Position numbers and translations under genes: made by a program
Assembly: GCF_027942865.1 (NCBI RefSeq)
Contig: NC_134524.1
Coordinates: 19,583,536-19,647,535, forward strand
Direction: 5' to 3'
Source of the DNA: Odontesthes bonariensis
Lineage: Eukaryota; Chordata; Actinopteri; Atheriniformes; Atherinopsidae
Length of the DNA stretch: 64,000 nt
The notes under the pieces: model-generated
Seen by the model: the letters and a program-made list of their open reading frames with translations, nothing else
The model's database searches: none
Told to the model about the DNA's origin: nothing
In this document: positions 14,901 through 62,100 of the stretch, piece after piece
Position numbering within the stretch: position 1 is the stretch's first letter
How the letters are laid out: each line of letters opens with the position of its first letter

Positions 14901-17900
14901 GCTATAGGCCTAGACTGCTGGGGGGCCTCATCTGACACACCTTTCCTCACTTTACTCTCTTTATGTATATGTGATATTATTGTGGTCATTAACTCGTGTT
15001 TCCCTGTTCCAACAGATATCCTTTGAATGGTGTTACAGTGCCGCCGTCGCGGTGGCCGTTGCGGTGGCCGTCGCGGTGGCCCCCTGCCCCCCCCCCCCCC
15101 CCCCCCTTTTCTGTCTTCTCAAACCCCAGCTGGTCGAGGCGGATGGCCACCCTTCCTGAGTCTGGTTCTGCCAGAGGTTTCTTCCTGTTAAAAGGGAGTC
15201 GTTTCTCTCCACAGTCGCCTCAGGCACGCCGCTCAGGCCGGGAGATTGGACCGAAAAACAAAAAGTTTTCAGTGCAATCTGTTGGTTTTCTTAGCTAGGA
15301 AATTGTTTTTGAATTGGCTCTATATGAACGAATTGGATTATTTTATGAATTATGATTATTATTAATTAATTGAATTCCAATTGGCTTGAATTGGACTTAC
15401 TATCTAAGTGCCTTGAGATGACATTTGTTGTTTTTGGCGCTATATAAATAAAAATGAATTGAATTGAATTGAATTCGAGGGTTAAAGGGCCCAGAGACAG
15501 GGGAGAGCTTTGCATTTCTTCTTTGCCAAATTTGATTTGATTTAATCTTTACCAAACCGTTTAATTTCAAGCCTTTTGTGTGCAATCCAGATGACAACGT
15601 TGATTTGACTGAACATCCTCATCTTTATTTTTTCCTCAGGGAACACTTCACAAAGTTTTATTCAGCAAAAATATTTTTTTCTGCAATATTTATAACAGGA
15701 TTATAGGAATTCGAGTTGAACTGCTCTTTGCAGCACTCACTTATGTGTAAAGGAGGACAAATAGAATTTGCCACCTAAAAACTGAACTGACCAAGTTTTT
15801 AACGTGCTCTGCTATAAAAAGAGGGGGGGGGGGACGACACACACAGAGTCTGCTTTAAACTGCTCCTCTTCCTGTCATCACTCACAGCCTGATAACTCCT
15901 CCCACCTTTTGTTCAACTGTTGTTCAGTCTGTCTGGATCTGCTGAAGGATCCAGTGACTATTCCCTGTGGACACAGCCACAGCAAGAACTGTATTAAAAG
16001 CTACTGGGATGAAGAGGATCAGAAAGGAATCCACAGCTGTCCTCAGTAAAGGGTGACCTTCAGAGCGAGGCCTCTTCTGGTGAAAAACACCATGTTTCCA
16101 GCCTTGGTAAAGAAGGTGAAGAAGGATGGAGTCCAAGCTGCTCCAGCTGATCACTGCTATGCTGGACCTGAAGATGTGGCCTGTGATGTCTGCACTGGGA
16201 CATGGTTGTCGTACTGAAGTATCTGTTATCTCTGCTCAATGGATGAACATAAAGGCCATGAAACAGTCCCAGCAGAAGCAGAAAGGACTGAGAAGCAGAA
16301 GGAGCTCGAGGGGAGAAGACAACAAATTCGGCAGAGAATCCAGGACCGAGAGAAAGATGTGAAGCTGCGAGCTGCAGCTAATTGTCTCTGAGCTGATTGT
16401 CATGGTAACATGGGGGTGCAGCTCCTGGACATCAGGTTTGGTGCAGAAAACCGTTTTATCTTATATGGGAGGGTTTTGATGCCAGCAGATCTGAAGATAA
16501 AGGATAAGACTGACGATGGTGGGTTCATTGTTGGCATATTCATTCGTCAGGTCATTTGAAAGAACCACATTGTGGCTAGACAGGTTCAGTCTGATTAGTA
16601 AATCTGAGTAATTTCCATGAGCTGCCTCGACCTTTCTGCTGCTGACAAGCAAGCAGATTTCAGAACAGATTTTCACTTTGAGAAGATTTCACAAAACGCT
16701 GGACCTCAGCTGCTATGGCTGTAGAAAAGTTAAGGGTTGTTGCAGCTTCCTATAACTACCGATGGGAATTCTAAAGGTTTATCTTGTTCAAAATCCGAAC
16801 TGCCTCAGCTGCAAACGTCTCACTGAAACCCTGTAGTTGCTTTTATTTTCCAGTGTTTTCTCCGTTTCCTGCGAATCCTGAAAACGCCAAACCCACCCAC
16901 CTTCTTCGTCGATGTTATTGTAAGCGACAGCGGTCGAGTCTCCGTTGATAACGTCCAAGAAGAAGTCAGCGGGGTTGTTGTGGGCCTCGCAGGTGTATCC
17001 TTGAAAACAGTTCCCCAGATGAGTTACAAAACGTCCCCCAAATATTCAACATCGCTTTGAAAATTTGATGTTCACATTCTCACCGATGTCCGAAAAATAC
17101 TCCAGCGCTGTCTGTGCTGGGCCGTGGTAAACCTGACCATTGTAACGACACATGAAACATTTAAAATGATGATAAACATGGTTCTTTCCATATGTTGACC
17201 GGGCTTCAAATTAAAAAAAAAAAAAATAAATAAAAAAAAAATCACTGGACAAATCTGGTAAAAACAGAAGTTGTGGTGACCTGTTTGCCGCTGACCAGCA
17301 GAGTGAGGCTGTCAAACAGCCGGTAGATGGAGTATCGAGGCTGATGGATGGACAGGATGATGTTGCGACCGTTGTTCGCCATCCTACAGAATTGGAAAGA
17401 ATAAAGAAACGTGGATTTAACTCAAATTCAATGTTTTTCCAAGTATTTTGTATGATATTTCCTTTGCTATGTGCCACCTCTAAACACTATTTCTCCAAGC
17501 TATAACAAAAACATTATTTTGTAGGTTTATTTTAGGGGGTATTTAGTTTTTTTTTTATATTTTATTTCCTGGATGATTTTATTTCCTAACATCACTGGAA
17601 TAAATAAACCCGACCGCTTTTATTGGAAGTACCACCAAAAAATAGCCCCTACAAAAAGTAATCCAACCTTAAAATGGATTTTAATCTGTGCTCCTTCATA
17701 TGAGCAATTAAAGGGCAAAAATCGCCCAAAGTACCAGTAAACTCAAAAGTAAAACCTTCCAACCGGGGCTGTTTTGGGGCATAAAATATCCGCCAAACTT
17801 CACTTAGTCCCTGGTCACTGTGGTGGTAATTACAGAATGAACTGGGACCTTCTAAAAGTCAATGCTGTATAAGAGTTTTCTACCTTTTTCAATCTGTCAG

Positions 17901-52599: not shown

Positions 52600-53498
52600 T
52601 TAACCCATTTAGGCCTAAGACGCCTGGAAAAGAATGCCTGTAAAACCTATGGGCGATTTCAGAAAGACCCCCTAAAACCTGAAGTTTTTCTGGAAATTCA
52701 GCAATTACTAAATTATTGATTTCTCAGCCTCTGTAGCAGTTAGAAACAAAATTCAAAAAGTATTTGAGAGCTTACACCTGTGGCTTTCTTTGGAAATTGA
52801 GTTTATTTACATACACCTTCATGATAAATAGAAAATGTAAAAAGTAAAGTGCAGGAACAGCGCTATTTTCAATTAGAAAACAGTAATAAAATAAAATTTA
52901 ATTTAATTTACATTTAAATTATTTATTTATATATTTATTTTATCGCCAGTAATCTCTTCGTACTGGCAGCACAAGGAGTCCATACACATTCCAATAAACG
53001 TTTTCATCTCCGGCACAGTTACGTGTGACCACCTTGCCATCTTTGCTCGAGCTGGAGTCTGAAGTACCTGGTCACTGTATCTATTCGTCTCGGAAACGAA
53101 ATGCGCCCAAAGCTCCTCAGTAAAAATATGATTAAATGCCTGCAATGGTGTGGCATCTGCAGGTAAATCGACTTTCACCGCTGGTGTGCGGTTGAAATCT
53201 CTCCGTCGATTATGGTGGTAATTGTCAGTCTTCCACTCACATTCAAACCCTTCAAAATCATCCTCGCCGTTATCGTCATCTTCAAACATATGTGCTAGCC
53301 ATAAATCTCGATCAATTGGGTCAGCACGTTCATCAGCATCAATGATGCGCCATCATCAAAGCCAAGAAACTCCTCACAATCGCTACCGTCTGAAATGTCT
53401 TCCCACTGAAAGTCCTCCAAGCTTGTTCGATATAACTTAACTTCAAAACAATGACACGAGGAACATGACGACACTCTCACGTGTCTATTATAATGCAT
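52600..53498 (-). pseudogene. piggyBac-like transposase relic
   Basis: On the minus strand, 53498-53295 carries the acidic N-terminal segment DISDGSDCEEFLGFDD. After a frameshift, 53289-52927 carries TPLQAFNHIFTEELW, SETNRYSDQ and VTVPEMKTFIGM, the hallmark start of the piggyBac DDE domain. The catalytic part is absent. At 52600 there is TTAA followed by CCCATTTAGGCC, a good candidate for one terminus of the element. It is truncated and frameshifted. Confidence 0.75.
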
Positions 53499-54293: not shown

Positions 54294-55367
54294 TTATATG
54301 GGAAAACTGTAGTTGGGAAAAGCAGCCTGGCTGAAACCATATTTGGAGAGGAAGTGTTTAAGATAAATCACACTGTAAACCCTGGAACAAGTGAATGTCA
54401 GCGTGAAACCAGAGAGATTAATGGAAGAAACATCACATTGATCGACACTCCTGGATTCTTTGACAATCGCAGGAATGAAGAGGGCCTGAAACCTGAGACA
54501 GCAAAGTGCATCACCGAGTGTCCTCATGCTTTTCTCATTTTACTTAAAGTGGAGAAATTTACGGAGCACGAGAAAGAGGTTGTCTCTAAAATAAAACAAT
54601 CTTTTTCTGAGGAAGCTTTCAAATATGCTGTGGTCGTCTTCACTCACGGTGATCAGCTCCCCGAAGGGATGACGATTGAAGAGTTTGTGAGTGAAAATAA
54701 GGATCTGCGTGATCTCCTGGAGAAATGTGGAGGCCGCTGCCATGTGGTTGACAACAAATACTGGAAGAACAACCAGCAGCATGAATACAGAAACAACCAG
54801 ATCCAGGTGGGAAATCTGCTCAACACAATAACAGAGATGGTAAAGACAAACAGTGGAGGTTTCTACACCAATAAGATGCTACAAGCAGTGAACAGACTAA
54901 TTCAAGAGGAGGAAAGACGCATTCAGTCATCATCAGGACATGTGTCACAGGAAGAGATTAAGAGTCAGGCAAAGAAAAATGTCTTCAATTTTCTCAAGAA
55001 AGCTGCAGGTATTACAACAGGAGTGTTGTTAGGAGCTCTGCTCGGTGTGCCTGTGATGGTTGCTTTAGTTGTCCGGGCATTGAAAGCTATGGGAACAGCT
55101 GAAGCAGAGGTGGTGAAGGTGGCAGTGGTAACGGCAGCTGGAGGAACTGCAGCAGCAGCAGCATCAGGTGTGGTAGCTGGTATCGCAGCAGGAGCTGCTC
55201 TTACAGGAGCGGCAGCTGGAGGTTATACTGGGTATTGTGAAGCTGATAAATCAGACTCGGCTGTAGAGGCGGTAATGAACACAGCTACGGCTGTTGGTGA
55301 GCTTGCTGCAGAGCTGATTCAAAAAAGTGTTAAATATAAAGAAAAATCAAAGCTCGGAGGACAGTAA
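54294..55367 (+). CDS. GIMAP/AIG1-type GTPase, main exon, 5' end not found
   Basis: The open frame encodes 357 residues to a TAA stop. Motifs of the AIG1 GTPase family: P-loop GKTVVGKSS, GTSECQRE (G2 region), LIDTPGFFD (G3), FTHGDQL (G4, the variant common in fish GIMAPs) and RCHVVDNKYW (G5 and conserved box). After residue 230 come two long hydrophobic Gly/Ala-rich stretches, which could anchor it in a membrane. GIMAPs are immune-associated GTPases acting on intracellular membranes of lymphoid and other cells. No in-frame ATG precedes the P-loop: a TGA lies at 54288-54290. The reading therefore starts either at an acceptor (CAG at 54291-54293) or from a broken 5' end. If no upstream exon exists, this is a 5'-truncated copy. 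Confidence 0.85.
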   Translation, partial: LYGKTVVGKSSLAETIFGEEVFKINHTVNPGTSECQRETREINGRNITLIDTPGFFDNRRNEEGLKPETAKCITECPHAFLILLKVEKFTEHEKEVVSKIKQSFSEEAFKYAVVVFTHGDQLPEGMTIEEFVSENKDLRDLLEKCGGRCHVVDNKYWKNNQQHEYRNNQIQVGNLLNTITEMVKTNSGGFYTNKMLQAVNRLIQEEERRIQSSSGHVSQEEIKSQAKKNVFNFLKKAAGITTGVLLGALLGVPVMVALVVRALKAMGTAEAEVVKVAVVTAAGGTAAAAASGVVAGIAAGAALTGAAAGGYTGYCEADKSDSAVEAVMNTATAVGELAAELIQKSVKYKEKSKLGGQ

Positions 55368-55634
55368 GGCTCTGTTAAACTAGGCTGCAGCTGAGCTTTT
55401 ATTAAAGGTGATAGAGAATGGTTGAATGGGGCATTAATCCTTGTTCTGTAATGTGATATGTAGCCCAAAAAAAATTGGTTGGGTCTGTAATGGCTCAGAA
55501 CCTCCCTAAAAGGCTCTCTGAAACAGCTGTTACTATGCTGGGTTTAGAATGCGTCTTTTTCCCTTATTGGCGTCGTTTCAGAGCTTATCTGGCAACCTCA
55601 TTATGAAATGCAGGTAGGTGTTGGCTCTATTCTA
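55368..55634. other. 3' flank of the GIMAP exon
   Basis: Unique sequence, with no AATAAA close to the stop. It ends where the palindrome begins. Confidence 0.4.
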
Positions 55635-55867
55635 TGAGGTGCCACCAGGGACATAAATCAGAATTAACTTCCATATACACATGTGAAATTGAACTCTTCC
55701 ACATACTATACTCAAAACCTTGCACAAACACTAGTGAAAAGCTCTCACATAAACTAGTGAAAACATTTACCTCTTATATAACCTACTCAAAAGCTCTCAT
55801 ACACACTACTGAAAAGCTTTCATATATACTAGTGAAAAGCTTTACCTTTCATATATACTAGTAAAAA

Positions 55868-57206
55868 CCTCTCATATACAATGGTCAAACCTCTCATATT
55901 CACATGTCAAACCTCTCGTACACATATGTCAAATCTCTCATACACATATGTCAAACCTCTCATACACATATGTCAAACCTCTCATACACATATGTCAAAC
56001 CTCTCATACACATATGTCAAACCTCTCGTACACATATGTCAAACCTCTCGTACACATATGTCAAACCTCTCATACACATATGTCAAACCTCTCATACACA
56101 TATGTCAAACCTCTCATATACATATGTCAAACCTCTCATACACATATGTCAAACCTCTCATACTCATATGTCAAACCTCTCATACACATATGTCAAACCT
56201 CTCACACTCATATGTCAAACCTCTCGTACACATATGTCAAACCTCTCATACTCATATGTCAAACCTCTCATACACATATGTCAAACCTCTCATACTCATG
56301 TCAAACCTCTCATATACATATGTCAAACCTCTCATACACACGTCAAACCTCTCATACACATATGTCAAATCTCTCGTACACATATGTCAAACCTCTCGTA
56401 CACATATGTCAAACCTCTCATACTCATATGTCAAACCTCTCATACACATATGTCAAACCTCTCATACTCATATGTCAAACCTCTCATACACATATGTCAA
56501 ACCTCTCATACTCATATGTCAAACCTCTCATACACATATGTCAAACCTCTCATACTCATATGTCAAACCTCTCATATACATATGTCAAACCTCTCATACT
56601 CATATGTCAAACCTCTCATACACATATGTCAAACCTCTCATACACATATGTCAAACCTCTCATACTCATATGTCAAACCTCTCATACACATATGTCAAAC
56701 CTCTCATACTCATATGTCAAACCTCTCATACACATATGTCAAACCTCTCATACTCATATGTCAAACCTCTCATACACATATGTCAAACCTCTCATACTCA
56801 TATGTCAAACCTCTCATACACATATGTCAAACCTCTCATACTCATATGTCAAACCTCTCATACACATATGTCAAACCTCTCATACTCATATGTCAAACCT
56901 CTCATATACATATGTCAAACCTCTCATACACACGTCAAACCTCTCATACACATGTCAAATCTCTCATACACATATGTCAAACCTCTCATACTCATATGTC
57001 AAACCTCTCGTACACATATGTCAAACCTCTCATACTCATATGTCAAACCTCTCATACACACATGTCAAACCTCTCATATACATATGTCAAACCTCTCATA
57101 CTCATATGTCAAACCTCTCGTACACATATGTCAAACCTCTCATACTCAAATGTCAAACCTCTCATACACATATGTCAAACCTCTCATACACATATGTCAA
57201 ATATTT
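55868..57206 (+). repeat. 22-bp tandem array, left arm, about 59 units
   Basis: Unit CATATGTCAAACCTCTCATA plus CA. Units vary mainly at the last bases (TACACA, TACTCA, GTACACA, TATACA), and a few are shortened to about 20 bp. From about 56400 to 56890 the TACACA and TACTCA types alternate regularly, giving a 44-bp higher-order unit. No unit contains a stop codon in any plus-strand frame, which produces three overlapping frames of over 440 codons that I do not regard as genes. Confidence 0.95.
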
Positions 57207-58122
57207 GTGGATTTCAGTTGAAACGGAAGGCATTTCAGTGAAACAGGAAGGTGTTTTATTAAACCGGGAGTTGTAGTTTTAAACAGAAGTCATTCTGGTT
57301 AGCTTCGTGCATTTTGTGCAATCTCCTGCCGGTATTTTATGAAATAAAATAAACGACAATTGCTCAGCCACCCGCTGAATACCGCACACAAACAGCGGCA
57401 TTACTCAACTTTATTTTGGCTTCAACGGAGACCCTGCAGCTGGCAAAGGCATGCTGCGCTGGCAGAACGGAAAAAGAGATGCTAAGCGGCTATCCACCGA
57501 GTCCGGAGCTGGAGTTGAAGTGATCGGTTGCTGCCCAAGCCTTGTAGCATTTGACAGGGTCCTGATCGTCTCCGTTGAAGCTAAAATACTGTAGACGCGC
57601 GCTCGATTTTCAAGTGTAGATCGCACGACCGTGCCTTTCCGAAGCGCAGATGGCGTGACCGCAGTCCGCTGGACACCTCACACAAGCAGTGGCATTACTC
57701 AACAATATTTTAGCTTCAACGGAGACGATCAGGACCCTGTCAAATGCTACAACGGAGACGATCAGGACCCTGTCAAATGCTACAAGGCTTGGGCAGCAAC
57801 CGATCACTTCAACTCCAGCTCTGGACTCGGTGGATAGCCGCTTAGCATCTCTTTTTCCGTCCTGCCAGCGCAGCATGCCTTTGCCAGCTGCAGGGTCTCC
57901 GTTGAAGCCAAAATAAAGTTGAGTAATGCCGCTGTTTGTGTGAGGTATTCAGCGGGTGGCTGAGCAATTGTCGTTTATTTTATTTCATAAAATACCGGCA
58001 GGAGATTGCACAAAATGCACGAAGCTAACCAGAATGACTTCTGTTTAAAACTACAACTCCCGGTTTAATAAAACACCTTCCTGTTTCACTGAAATGCCTT
58101 CCGTTTCAACTGAAATCCACAA
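57207..58122. repeat. Inverted core and spacer of the palindrome
   Basis: 57207-57593 is matched in reverse by 57704-58122. In the right arm a 33-bp segment (GGAGACGATCAGGACCCTGT followed by CAAATGCTACAAC) occurs twice in tandem (57720-57785); the left arm has it once. The spacer (about 57594-57703) is GC-rich. It contains CAGTGGCATTACTCAACAAT, a diverged direct copy of a piece of the left core (57391-57412). Confidence 0.85.
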
Positions 58123-58889
58123 ATATTTGACATATGTGTATGAGAGGTTTGACATATGTGTATGAGAGGTTTGACATATGTATATGAGAGGTTTGACATA
58201 TGTGTATGAGAGGTTTGACATATGTGAATGAGAGGTTTGACATATGTGTATGAGAGGTTTGACATGTGTACGAGAGGTTTGACATATGTGTATGAGATAT
58301 TTGACATATGTGTACGAGATAGTTGACATATGTGTACGAGAGGTTTGACATATGTGTACGAGAGGTTTGACATATGTGTATGAGAGATTTGACATGTGTA
58401 TATGAGAGGTTTGACATGTGTATATGAGAGATTTGACATATGTGTATGAGAGATTTGACATATGTGTACGAGAGGTTTGACATATGTGTATGAGAGGTTT
58501 GACATCTGTGTACGAGAGGTTTGACATATGTGTACGAGAGGTTTGACATATGTGTATGAGAGGTTTGACATATGTGTATGAGAGATTTGACATATGTGTA
58601 TGAGAGGTTTGACGTGTGTATGAGAGGTTTGACATATGAGTATGAGAGGTTTGACATATGTGTACGAGAGGTTTGACATATGAGTATGAGAGGTTTGACA
58701 TATGTGTATGAGAGGTTTGACATGTGTATGAGAGGTTTGACATATGTATATGAGAGATTTGACATGTGTATGAGAGATTTGACATGTGTATGAGAGGTTT
58801 GACATATGTGTACGAGAGGTTTGACATATGTGTATGAGAGGTTTGACATATGTGTATGAGAGGTTTGACATATGTATATGAGAGGTTTT
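58123..58889 (-). repeat. 22-bp tandem array, right arm, about 34 units
   Basis: The same unit in reverse orientation (TATGAGAGGTTTGACATATG). It has more shortened units and more AGATTTGACAT variants than the left array, and lacks the long alternating block. So the two arrays expanded or contracted independently after the palindrome formed. Confidence 0.95.
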
Positions 58890-59118
58890 TACTAGTATAT
58901 ATGAAACGTAAAGCTTTTCACTAGTATATATGAAAGCTTTTCAGTAGTGTGTATGAGAGCTTTTGAGTAGGTTATATAAAAGGTAAATGTTTTCACTAGT
59001 TTATGTGAGAGCTTTTCACTAGTGTTTGTGCAAGGTTTTGAGTATAGTATGTGGAAGAGTTTAATTTCACATGTGTATATGGAAGTTAATTCTGATTTAT
59101 GTCCCTGGTGGCACCTCA

Positions 59119-62100
59119 CACAAAGGTCTTACTGTTTATTGTTTTACTTCTGTAACTCCATTTAATGGAGTTTCTGTGTTGCCATTAAAAACAAAGATAA
59201 AAAATGCCTCTTTTTTGACTTGTGAAAATCTTTCTCTACCCCAAAAAGGCATGAAAAGGTGGAGCTGGTGTTTTACAAAACATATTCCATTGATATTATA
59301 TTCTTATTATGGACAACAATGTTGAAGGTTTTGTCATAGGGCCTGTTGCAGTAGGAAAAGATGTGTTTAAAATCCTGGATGATAGGAATCGGGTGTTTTA
59401 CAGTGAACAAGCATCACATCATGTCCCACATCAAACTGCTTATCTGTCACAGTCTGTGGGTTTTCCGTCATGAAGTTCGTGTTGTGGCTTGTTTCACTGA
59501 AATTGTTTTACTGTTTTAGTTTGATTGTTCTAGGTTCGTTGGTGTTTTTTTGGCTTAGTTCAGTTTCTGTCGTACATTTAGTTAGTTTTCCTTATTCTCC
59601 AGATCGCTGTTTTAGCACTCCCTGCGCTTTCATGGTTTCTGCTCAGCTCTGTTTCTTGTTTGTTTTGTTTCCAGCACATGGCACTGCTTTTAGTTTGTAC
59701 ATAATAAACATTAAGATTCTAACACCTGTGTGCCTCACACCTTTTTGCTCCTTGGGTTGGATCTGACACTTCTTCTTGGTAATATGGACTGTGACAGTAG
59801 AATCTCTCCACACCTGGACCCAACAGGCTACACTTTTTCCTTCCAGGAGGTTACTGAATCTGGCTTAGGATGCAAAAGGCTCACTTCAGCTAATTCTGGC
59901 TACACCATCATTCACCACACATGTTTAATCACATTTCTTGCTGGGACAGTGTCAGAGCCCATTTAGGGCCAAGGTTCACACCGCTGCAGCTCATGCCTGG
60001 CACAAAGCCTGAGCTTGTAGACAATGCCGAAAAGTTCTGATCTTGTCCCTGTCTAGGGCTCTACAGTTGACACCCGACATGTCCCCGTTCCTGTGCAGGA
60101 GTCTGTAGGTGCTATGCATGGCCAGAGACCAATCCACTATGCCAGAGCTAGGGCTGGAACCCATCATGATGATTTTGGGATCTTCCGACCCCCTGATCAC
60201 TTAACTTCCAGCACTCTGAGGTGGTCCAGGAGGAATAGTCATGCCTCAGCAAGTACTGTCATTCGCAAAAATACAGTGTAGGACAATACTACAAAACATA
60301 CATTCATCATTTATCTTCTGCTTATCTGAGGTCAGCCATGGAGGCAAAAGGTCCAGTAAGGAAACCTCTGGAGAATTATATGATACTGATACTGCCACTA
60401 CCACCAACAATAATAATAATAATGCTTGTGTGGCATGCCCAGCAACTCCAGTAAGGTGGGTTCAAGTTAAGACCAACAACGCCACCCTGGCAATTTCACC
60501 CAGGGAGGATTCCTTATTTAAGGATTTATGATATGTTTTATATATCATCCAAAAATATAATTTGTTTTACCCAGATACTGTCAAAAACACAAACAACACT
60601 TTTACTATTATAGCTGAGCAAAACCCGCACCAAGTCAGATTGCTCTGACAAGCCCAAAATAATGAAGTCAGAACGCTAACATGAAAGTTATGACCTCAAA
60701 ACAGGCCCAGCATCCCTGGCATGAATAAAACAGTCTATTAGAAAAGGATTTTTTTTGGAAGTTTTCATTTTAGTGGGTGTTACATACCGATCAGGCAGTG
60801 ACTCCCAACACAGGGGACAGCATGACACTTATCCAATTACCTGAGGTATAAACCTGAGGCAAAGCAACCACATAACCTCAAACGGTTCAAGGTTGATGAC
60901 AGATAAGAAGAAAAACCTACTGGGAACACTCGAGAGGAAGCCATACAGCGAGCTGATCTAAAGATGATTAAATACTCACGATAGGCAAATATTACAGAAT
61001 GTCTGAACGAGTGAAACACCACAGACACTCATACCTGCAAGAGCAACAGAAGTCAGGCAACAGGGCGTGCACTCAACACCAGAGGATACTATTTTAACGG
61101 AGCTGCACTGAAACTTCTTTAAAAGTAATTTCAAACTGATATCAGCTTTGCATGCAGTTGCTAAAGTTTATATTTGTTATGGTTTGAGGTAGAGTGTTTT
61201 TGAAAGAAATACAAATACAGATACAGCAAATGATCGGAGGTTGAAGGAAACTGAACTGATTTATTTAAATTTTAAACAAATGGTGAGGCCAAACCAGAAG
61301 TACATAAAAAAAATTAAAAATTAAAAAAATGCTGACAAAACATGAACAAAAAACTAGACTAATCAGAGACTAGAAACAAGAACTGGAACAAGTGGTTGTA
61401 ACAGCAAGGATCTGACAATTATTGAGAGAAAAGAGAGCTTAAATACTGAGAACTCATTGGTGAAAGGTAGCAGCTGAACAGAGGTGAGTGAGTGGAGTGA
61501 ATGACCTGAACATGGAAGCTGAGGAAACAATGGGTGAGAGATGTAAAACAAGAAATCTACATGATGACATACAAGGAAAGACAAAACAAAACCCAGAAAA
61601 AAATCCACAAAAACCAAAACAAAGTCCAAAAACAAATCCACAAACTCTAAAAATACTTTTGTAGGGTGAAAATGTTTGAACCCATTAAGACCTGATGTTA
61701 CATGTAATGTTTTCTGTCCACATTTAGAGGAAGTTTCAAGTCTTTGTGAGTTAAAACATTGTCAGAGGCAGTTTGAAACTAGCTCCGCCTCTAAAACACC
61801 ATTATTTTCCCCCAGTTATTGCATCTCGAGGAAGTGATTTGAACAGACGAGCTACAATCACAGCACAGAACGGAGCAGAGAACAAGTTCCAACAGATTTC
61901 CACTTTGATTTCTAAAATCATGGCGGGTGAGTAGAGATAATGAATATTTTTCTGTAGATTGAATGACTGAAAACATGAAGTGCTAAAATGTCTGAAATTA
62001 AAAACTTTCAAAGACATAAAATGCACAACACCAATATGTCAACTGAGCTGCACTGATAACACAAATACAATTAGTAGATCAAACAGATTCATGTTGATGA

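Follow-up and report, generated by a model that had tools for sequence, protein, structure and literature searches.

In bacterial composite transposons, two related element copies move the intervening DNA as one unit. The P superfamily, to which the Drosophila foldback element Galileo is reportedly assigned, is marked by a P-type transposase with a THAP domain. Known foldbacks belong mostly to the Mutator superfamily, with exceptions, and can be orphans (available excerpts of PMC4079207). Tetris and Galileo resemble the element treated here in their foldback architecture and non-autonomous copies, and Tetris also in the tandem repeats of its inverted ends; it differs by its 8-10 bp target duplications and by its transposase copy, which its authors could not find (same excerpts of PMC4079207). 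The inverted ends of Tm1 (Mutator/foldback, root-knot nematodes) are likewise composed mostly of tandem repeats (~14 bp, in variable number) and the family includes transposase-coding and MITE-like members, while its 9-bp duplications and Mutator-type transposase set it apart (excerpts of PMC3169594). In the IS3EU superfamily (Repbase; with GingerRoot) the termini are always TA..TA, the duplications are usually 6 bp long and the transposases are related to IS3/IS481 (PMC10045372, in part), with fungal members ending in TAYGG..CCRTA (PMC12730594, in part).

Here we describe a palindrome from Odontesthes bonariensis, located in the 64,000-nucleotide stretch of DNA that was analysed as a whole (hereafter the window). 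In our view it is very probably a DNA transposon that is shaped as a foldback, lacks autonomy and belongs to an IS3EU-like family, with ends recognised by the DDE transposase of larger copies (the term 'foldback' being used as a description of shape).

Anatomy of the palindrome

The palindrome occupies positions 55633-59120 (3488 bp). These ends were set by comparison with other copies and lie two bases further out on each side than the limits originally predicted (55635..59118), within which the palindrome itself was correctly recognised. The inverse ends (55630-55969 and 58784-59123; 340 nt, 96%), the opposed 22-bp arrays and the inverted core (together with the adjoining array, 57058-57581 and 57746-58269; 524 nt, 98%) are all real, as is the arrangement of the core around a spacer, although the latter measures 160 bp instead of the supposed 110 bp or so. 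Read from the outside inwards, each arm opens with a tip of 232 bp, continues as a tandem array of 22-bp units and closes with a core arm (383 bp on the left, 379 bp on the right; Table 1), the outermost letters being TAT at 55633 and ACA at 59120.

The arrays hold 61.1 (left) and 35.1 (right) copies of a unit whose consensus, read round, contains a small palindrome (ACATATGT, read directly). The arms of the window copy differ by point changes, as had been claimed, and additionally by array length. A two-unit period (44 bp) is stronger in the left array (0.896) than in the right one (0.796), which fits arms that have changed independently. The palindrome region had no match in Rfam.

Table 1. 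Features of the palindrome and its left flank (positions within the window)
Feature	Position	Strand	Remarks
Left flank, part of a dispersed repeat cut off at the element	55402..55632	+	identity with four fetched copies 98.7-99.1%
Left tip of the terminal inverted repeat	55633..55864	+	begins TATGAGGTGCCACC; same tip at many loci
Left 22-bp array, ~61 units (AAACCTCTCATACACATATGTC)	55865..57201	+	tandem repeat detection, copy comparison
Left core arm	57203..57585	+	matches to the 11 kb copy: 1-234 left end, 234-383 inverted near right end
Spacer, 160 bp	57586..57745	.	holds part of a 33-bp tandem duplication
Right core arm	57746..58124	-	98.9% identity with left core arm
Right 22-bp array, ~35 units	58126..58888	-	tandem repeat detection, copy comparison
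Right tip	58889..59120	-	outer triplet ACA; ATA in most copies

Distribution of the family and target duplications

The genome (945 Mb, 187 contigs) was searched with patterns derived from the element, and the counts obtained for large families are lower bounds. Further copies with the same termini, which the original prediction proposed to seek with the tip, were plentiful: a 30-bp tip pattern (<=3 mismatches) was matched 217 times (110 forward, 107 reverse), far above the chance level set by the reversed-pattern control (0 matches), and all of the 100 matches listed were exact. The 81-bp end pattern was matched 177 times. The 66 distinct tips that were extracted differ pairwise by a median of 4.3% and a mean of 7.9% (the latter probably raised by truncated tips), and by this divergence the family looks young.

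In the fetched loci, the nearest paired tips lie between 438 bp and 11 kb apart, and the arrays (22-23-bp units), where detected, range from 2 to 107 units, usually with unequal arms (30 loci). The outer triplet is TAT in 58 of 64 distinct tips (loci L001-L058), corresponding to the TA..TA termini of IS3EU; CAT was found in three, CAC in one and TGT in two (the right end of the window copy and C2:17363893). A nested insertion was directly observed, in which the copy at C13:33905208-33907709 sits in the core of another copy and is flanked by the duplication CAAACA. The alternative of a free satellite was rejected as far as the listed places show: the exact two-unit word occurs 592 times (265 + 327), and among the 100 places listed 97 adjoin tips or element matches, three (C2:43379065-43379195) being left unassigned.

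Identical 6-bp flanks were recorded for 27 of 40 end pairs; three further pairs have one mismatch, one is exact at 7 bp and nine have no duplication. Of the 40, 18 are simple pairs, belonging to the window copy, the older copy L015 and 16 further copies; 3 are outer pairs of composites, and the 19 extra pairs were chosen from the listed tip or end matches and not at random. The set leaves out six inner pairs that adjoin composite junctions or cargo (L002, L044, L046, L049, L052, L058; duplication in 0/6), together with cross-pairs of nested copies and loci repeating one place. The pair L090/L091, which has no duplication and was kept in the set, borders on the inner flank found at L002 and is likely to be an inner pair as well. 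Random re-pairing of the ends gave 1.8% exact matches, of which about 1.7% is expected because some true pairs stay together. Ten of the exact 6-bp pairs were examined at 8 bp too, and over that length they show 2-8 mismatches. The target duplication that the original prediction proposed to look for is present in most of the pairs compared, at the 6 bp of IS3EU and not the 8-10 bp of Mutator foldbacks, and is missing from the window copy (flanks CTATTC / CAAAGG). The 217 tips and the 6-bp duplications support the foldback-like anatomy and mobility put forward in the original prediction; movement by enzymes supplied in trans is the likeliest reading.

Composite elements and the history of the window copy

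A fixed 31-bp junction (outside sequence plus tip) recurs at 13 genomic sites (<=3 mismatches), and these are composite elements carrying several kb of other DNA. One of them (C4:31178469-31188652) is a 10.2 kb unit flanked by the duplication GGGAGA. Its three parts are a palindrome truncated at the inner end, a relative with an internal deletion, and other DNA amounting to 5.2 kb. Exact 6-bp outer duplications were found in six of the seven composites compared (C2, C3, two on C4, C15 and C16; not C20). Parts of the carried DNA of the C4 composite are present, 96.6-98.3% identical, at C2, C3, C4:31712 kb, C7 and C15. It holds a 660-codon open frame, for which a single sub-threshold Pfam match and no solved structure (at E 0.001) were retrieved. 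Elsewhere in the window, positions 15094-15469 match part of this carried DNA at 93.6%, so the latter contains a dispersed sequence. In contrast to the bacterial composite transposons, the units described here reside in a eukaryote, have a foldback palindrome as one of their ends and carry no known selected cargo.

Composites that have a palindrome as one of their ends do occur, and the window palindrome could itself be one end of a larger composite and not a rearranged solo copy. A parallel is found at C2:17363893, where a palindrome that also has a TGT end and no duplication of its own serves as outer end to a composite of 24.7 kb (duplication GCTACC). We consider this unlikely for the window: when TAT tips next to CTATTC or CAAAGG were sought (20 bases, <=1 mismatch), four and three matches were obtained, respectively, all of them with one mismatch and none in the vicinity of the window (the sole one on C24 lies 8 Mb away), and the window flanks do not match the cargo of the composite.

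The left flank is the start of a repeat that extends over at least 800 bp in other copies, and its continuation was not found within the window. A search with the joined flanks listed 40 matches (from 696 candidates), made up of 38 other copies of the left repeat and the window's own two flanks, with no empty site spanning the joined flanks among these 40. The right flank matched itself alone among the 40 scored matches, which are mostly left repeat, and its uniqueness is not thereby established. The simplest reading is that the window copy inserted into the left-flank repeat and subsequently lost or exchanged its right side, which would account for the missing target duplication; having no duplication and abutting half of another repeat, the window copy was probably rearranged later.

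Two open frames of other kinds lie to the left of the element: one (54354-55364, +) encodes an AIG1 (GIMAP-type GTPase) domain (E 3.4e-38) and ends ~270 bp before it, and the other (52927-53289, -) matches DDE_Tnp_1_7 (E 3.1e-7) and is a fragment of another transposon type.

A larger relative encodes a transposase

The original prediction envisaged an element class without any transposase, a view that has to be abandoned: an integrase-type transposase is encoded by an 11 kb copy (C13:21886134-21897115, duplication CATAAC) whose ends are those of the palindrome. Its tips show 0 differences over 232 bp, its arrays count 29 and 10 units, and it has the same kind of left subterminal DNA as the palindrome. 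Among its open frames, Pfam recovers the integrase core rva_4 (E 1.4e-73) and, under the curated cut-off, the helix-turn-helix model HTH_23 (2.9e-4). Across the transposase pieces, Pfam gave rva_4, rve and HTH matches, the IS3 (1.3e-5) and IS481 (5.1e-4) models were matched only below their curated cut-offs, and the THAP domain characteristic of Galileo/P was not found. The two pieces look like exons separated by a short intron, and acidic residues spaced 56 and 32 are taken as the putative catalytic ones.

A 268-aa transposase piece is wholly open, at 99-100% identity, in two loci (C13 and C14), the C14 copy lying inside a 12.7 kb end pair with the exact duplication GCTCCC; altogether the piece has 143 matching places, mostly distant. 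Because a stop interrupts the frame of the C13 copy upstream of the first piece, its transposase is treated as a candidate, with no claim of activity. In six junction copies (C3, C15, C16, C20 and two on C22) the transposase piece is spread over two frames, with the break at one place (residues 146-155). For two open frames on the minus strand of this 11 kb element, a resemblance to fish HECT E3-ligase-like proteins was considered, but they matched nothing in Pfam and the resemblance is not claimed. A cluster of 28 distant transposase relatives (45-47% identical, most with 1-2 internal stops) is situated at C3 ~33.18-35.89 Mb.

Classification

We regard the family as IS3EU-like because it combines TA..TA termini and 6-bp duplications with a DDE transposase of integrase type that weakly resembles the IS3 and IS481 models. 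Against this classification counts the difference between the fungal IS3EU termini (TAYGG..CCRTA; PMC12730594, in part) and those found here (TATGA..TCATA). Furthermore, arms made largely of 22-23-bp arrays, palindromic foldback derivatives and composites with extra DNA do not appear in the portions of the IS3EU descriptions that were consulted (PMC10045372, PMC12730594), and the matches listed from the open-licence literature (titles and abstract openings) include no published description of a foldback IS3EU family.

The architecture, i.e. long inverted ends of variable-number short tandem repeats with a middle domain, is shared with foldbacks placed in the P superfamily (Galileo) or in Mutator (FB, Tetris, Tm1) (PMC4079207, PMC3169594, both in part), and membership in one of these superfamilies would account for it. 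Such membership is nevertheless very improbable, considering that the duplications are 6 bp long and not 8-10 bp (Tetris) or 9 bp (Tm1), that the transposase is an integrase-core protein and that the termini read TAT..ATA. Mutator is thus set aside on account of both duplication length and transposase type and, as judged from sequence, termini and duplication length point to IS3EU and not to the P or Mutator of known foldbacks.

Origin and inheritance of the palindrome

The subterminal DNA at the left end of the 11 kb copy corresponds to core positions 1-234 (88%). Core positions 234-383 (92%) and spacer positions 81-160 (90%) have inverted counterparts on the other side of that copy, the former near its right end and the latter in its right subterminal region. 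Thus, the palindrome looks like the product of an internal deletion and an inverted duplication of the left end, the latter perhaps made by a template switch or foldback repair. With a left core that diverges by 10.7-13.7% from those of the palindromes, and a right-end counterpart of core 1-230 that reaches just 69% similarity, the 11 kb copy is not the direct parent but a relative.

Left and right cores within one copy differ by 0.7-2.4% (11 copies with both arms), and cores of different copies differ by medians of 1.1-2.9% (these include both arms of the 11 kb copy). Since the divergence within a copy is about that between copies, the palindrome was most likely made once and then inherited by transposition, and a remaking or homogenisation in place of each copy is rejected on the same comparison. 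The two origins that had been offered as alternatives (movement in trans, or breakage and template switching) both partly hold, with a single formation, probably by breakage or template switch, preceding transposition. An immobile structure, produced by a single inverted duplication or as a mirror in the assembly, is a very improbable alternative, in favour of which the missing duplication of the window copy might be cited. It is ruled out for the family by the exact 6-bp duplications of 27 of 40 pairs, with the 217 tip sites, the nested insertion and its duplication and the array lengths that vary between arms and copies also speaking against it.

Proposed mechanism and implications

We reason that the ends (TATGAGGTGCCACC..GGTGGCACCTCATA) would be recognised by the integrase-type (DDE) transposase of larger copies with the same ends, which would act in trans on the palindrome, and that cut-and-paste insertion would generate the 6-bp target duplication. 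The palindrome most likely formed in a single event, by which the left end was duplicated in inverted orientation on either side of a segment taken from close to the right end (probably through a template switch or foldback repair), and was then multiplied by transposition. The arrays, whose variation is directly seen, would lengthen and shorten separately in each arm by slippage or unequal exchange, and the window copy was probably rearranged afterwards on its right side.

Any role of the arrays is conjectural. Tentatively, and with doubts that outweigh our confidence, we suggest that the foldback palindromes of this IS3EU-like family may serve as IS-like end modules which, with a transposase-bearing relative opposite, move kilobases of unrelated DNA (including the 660-codon frame) as composites, and that the 22-bp arrays may be adjustable platforms for transposase binding.

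One genome thus unites copies in palindromic form, target duplications and relatives that share the ends and code for transposase, and this makes two questions testable: how ordinary elements yield foldback palindromes, and whether arrays at the ends aid transposase binding. Multi-copy composite elements are documented in a eukaryotic genome, and the IS3EU type would join the superfamilies that yield foldbacks.
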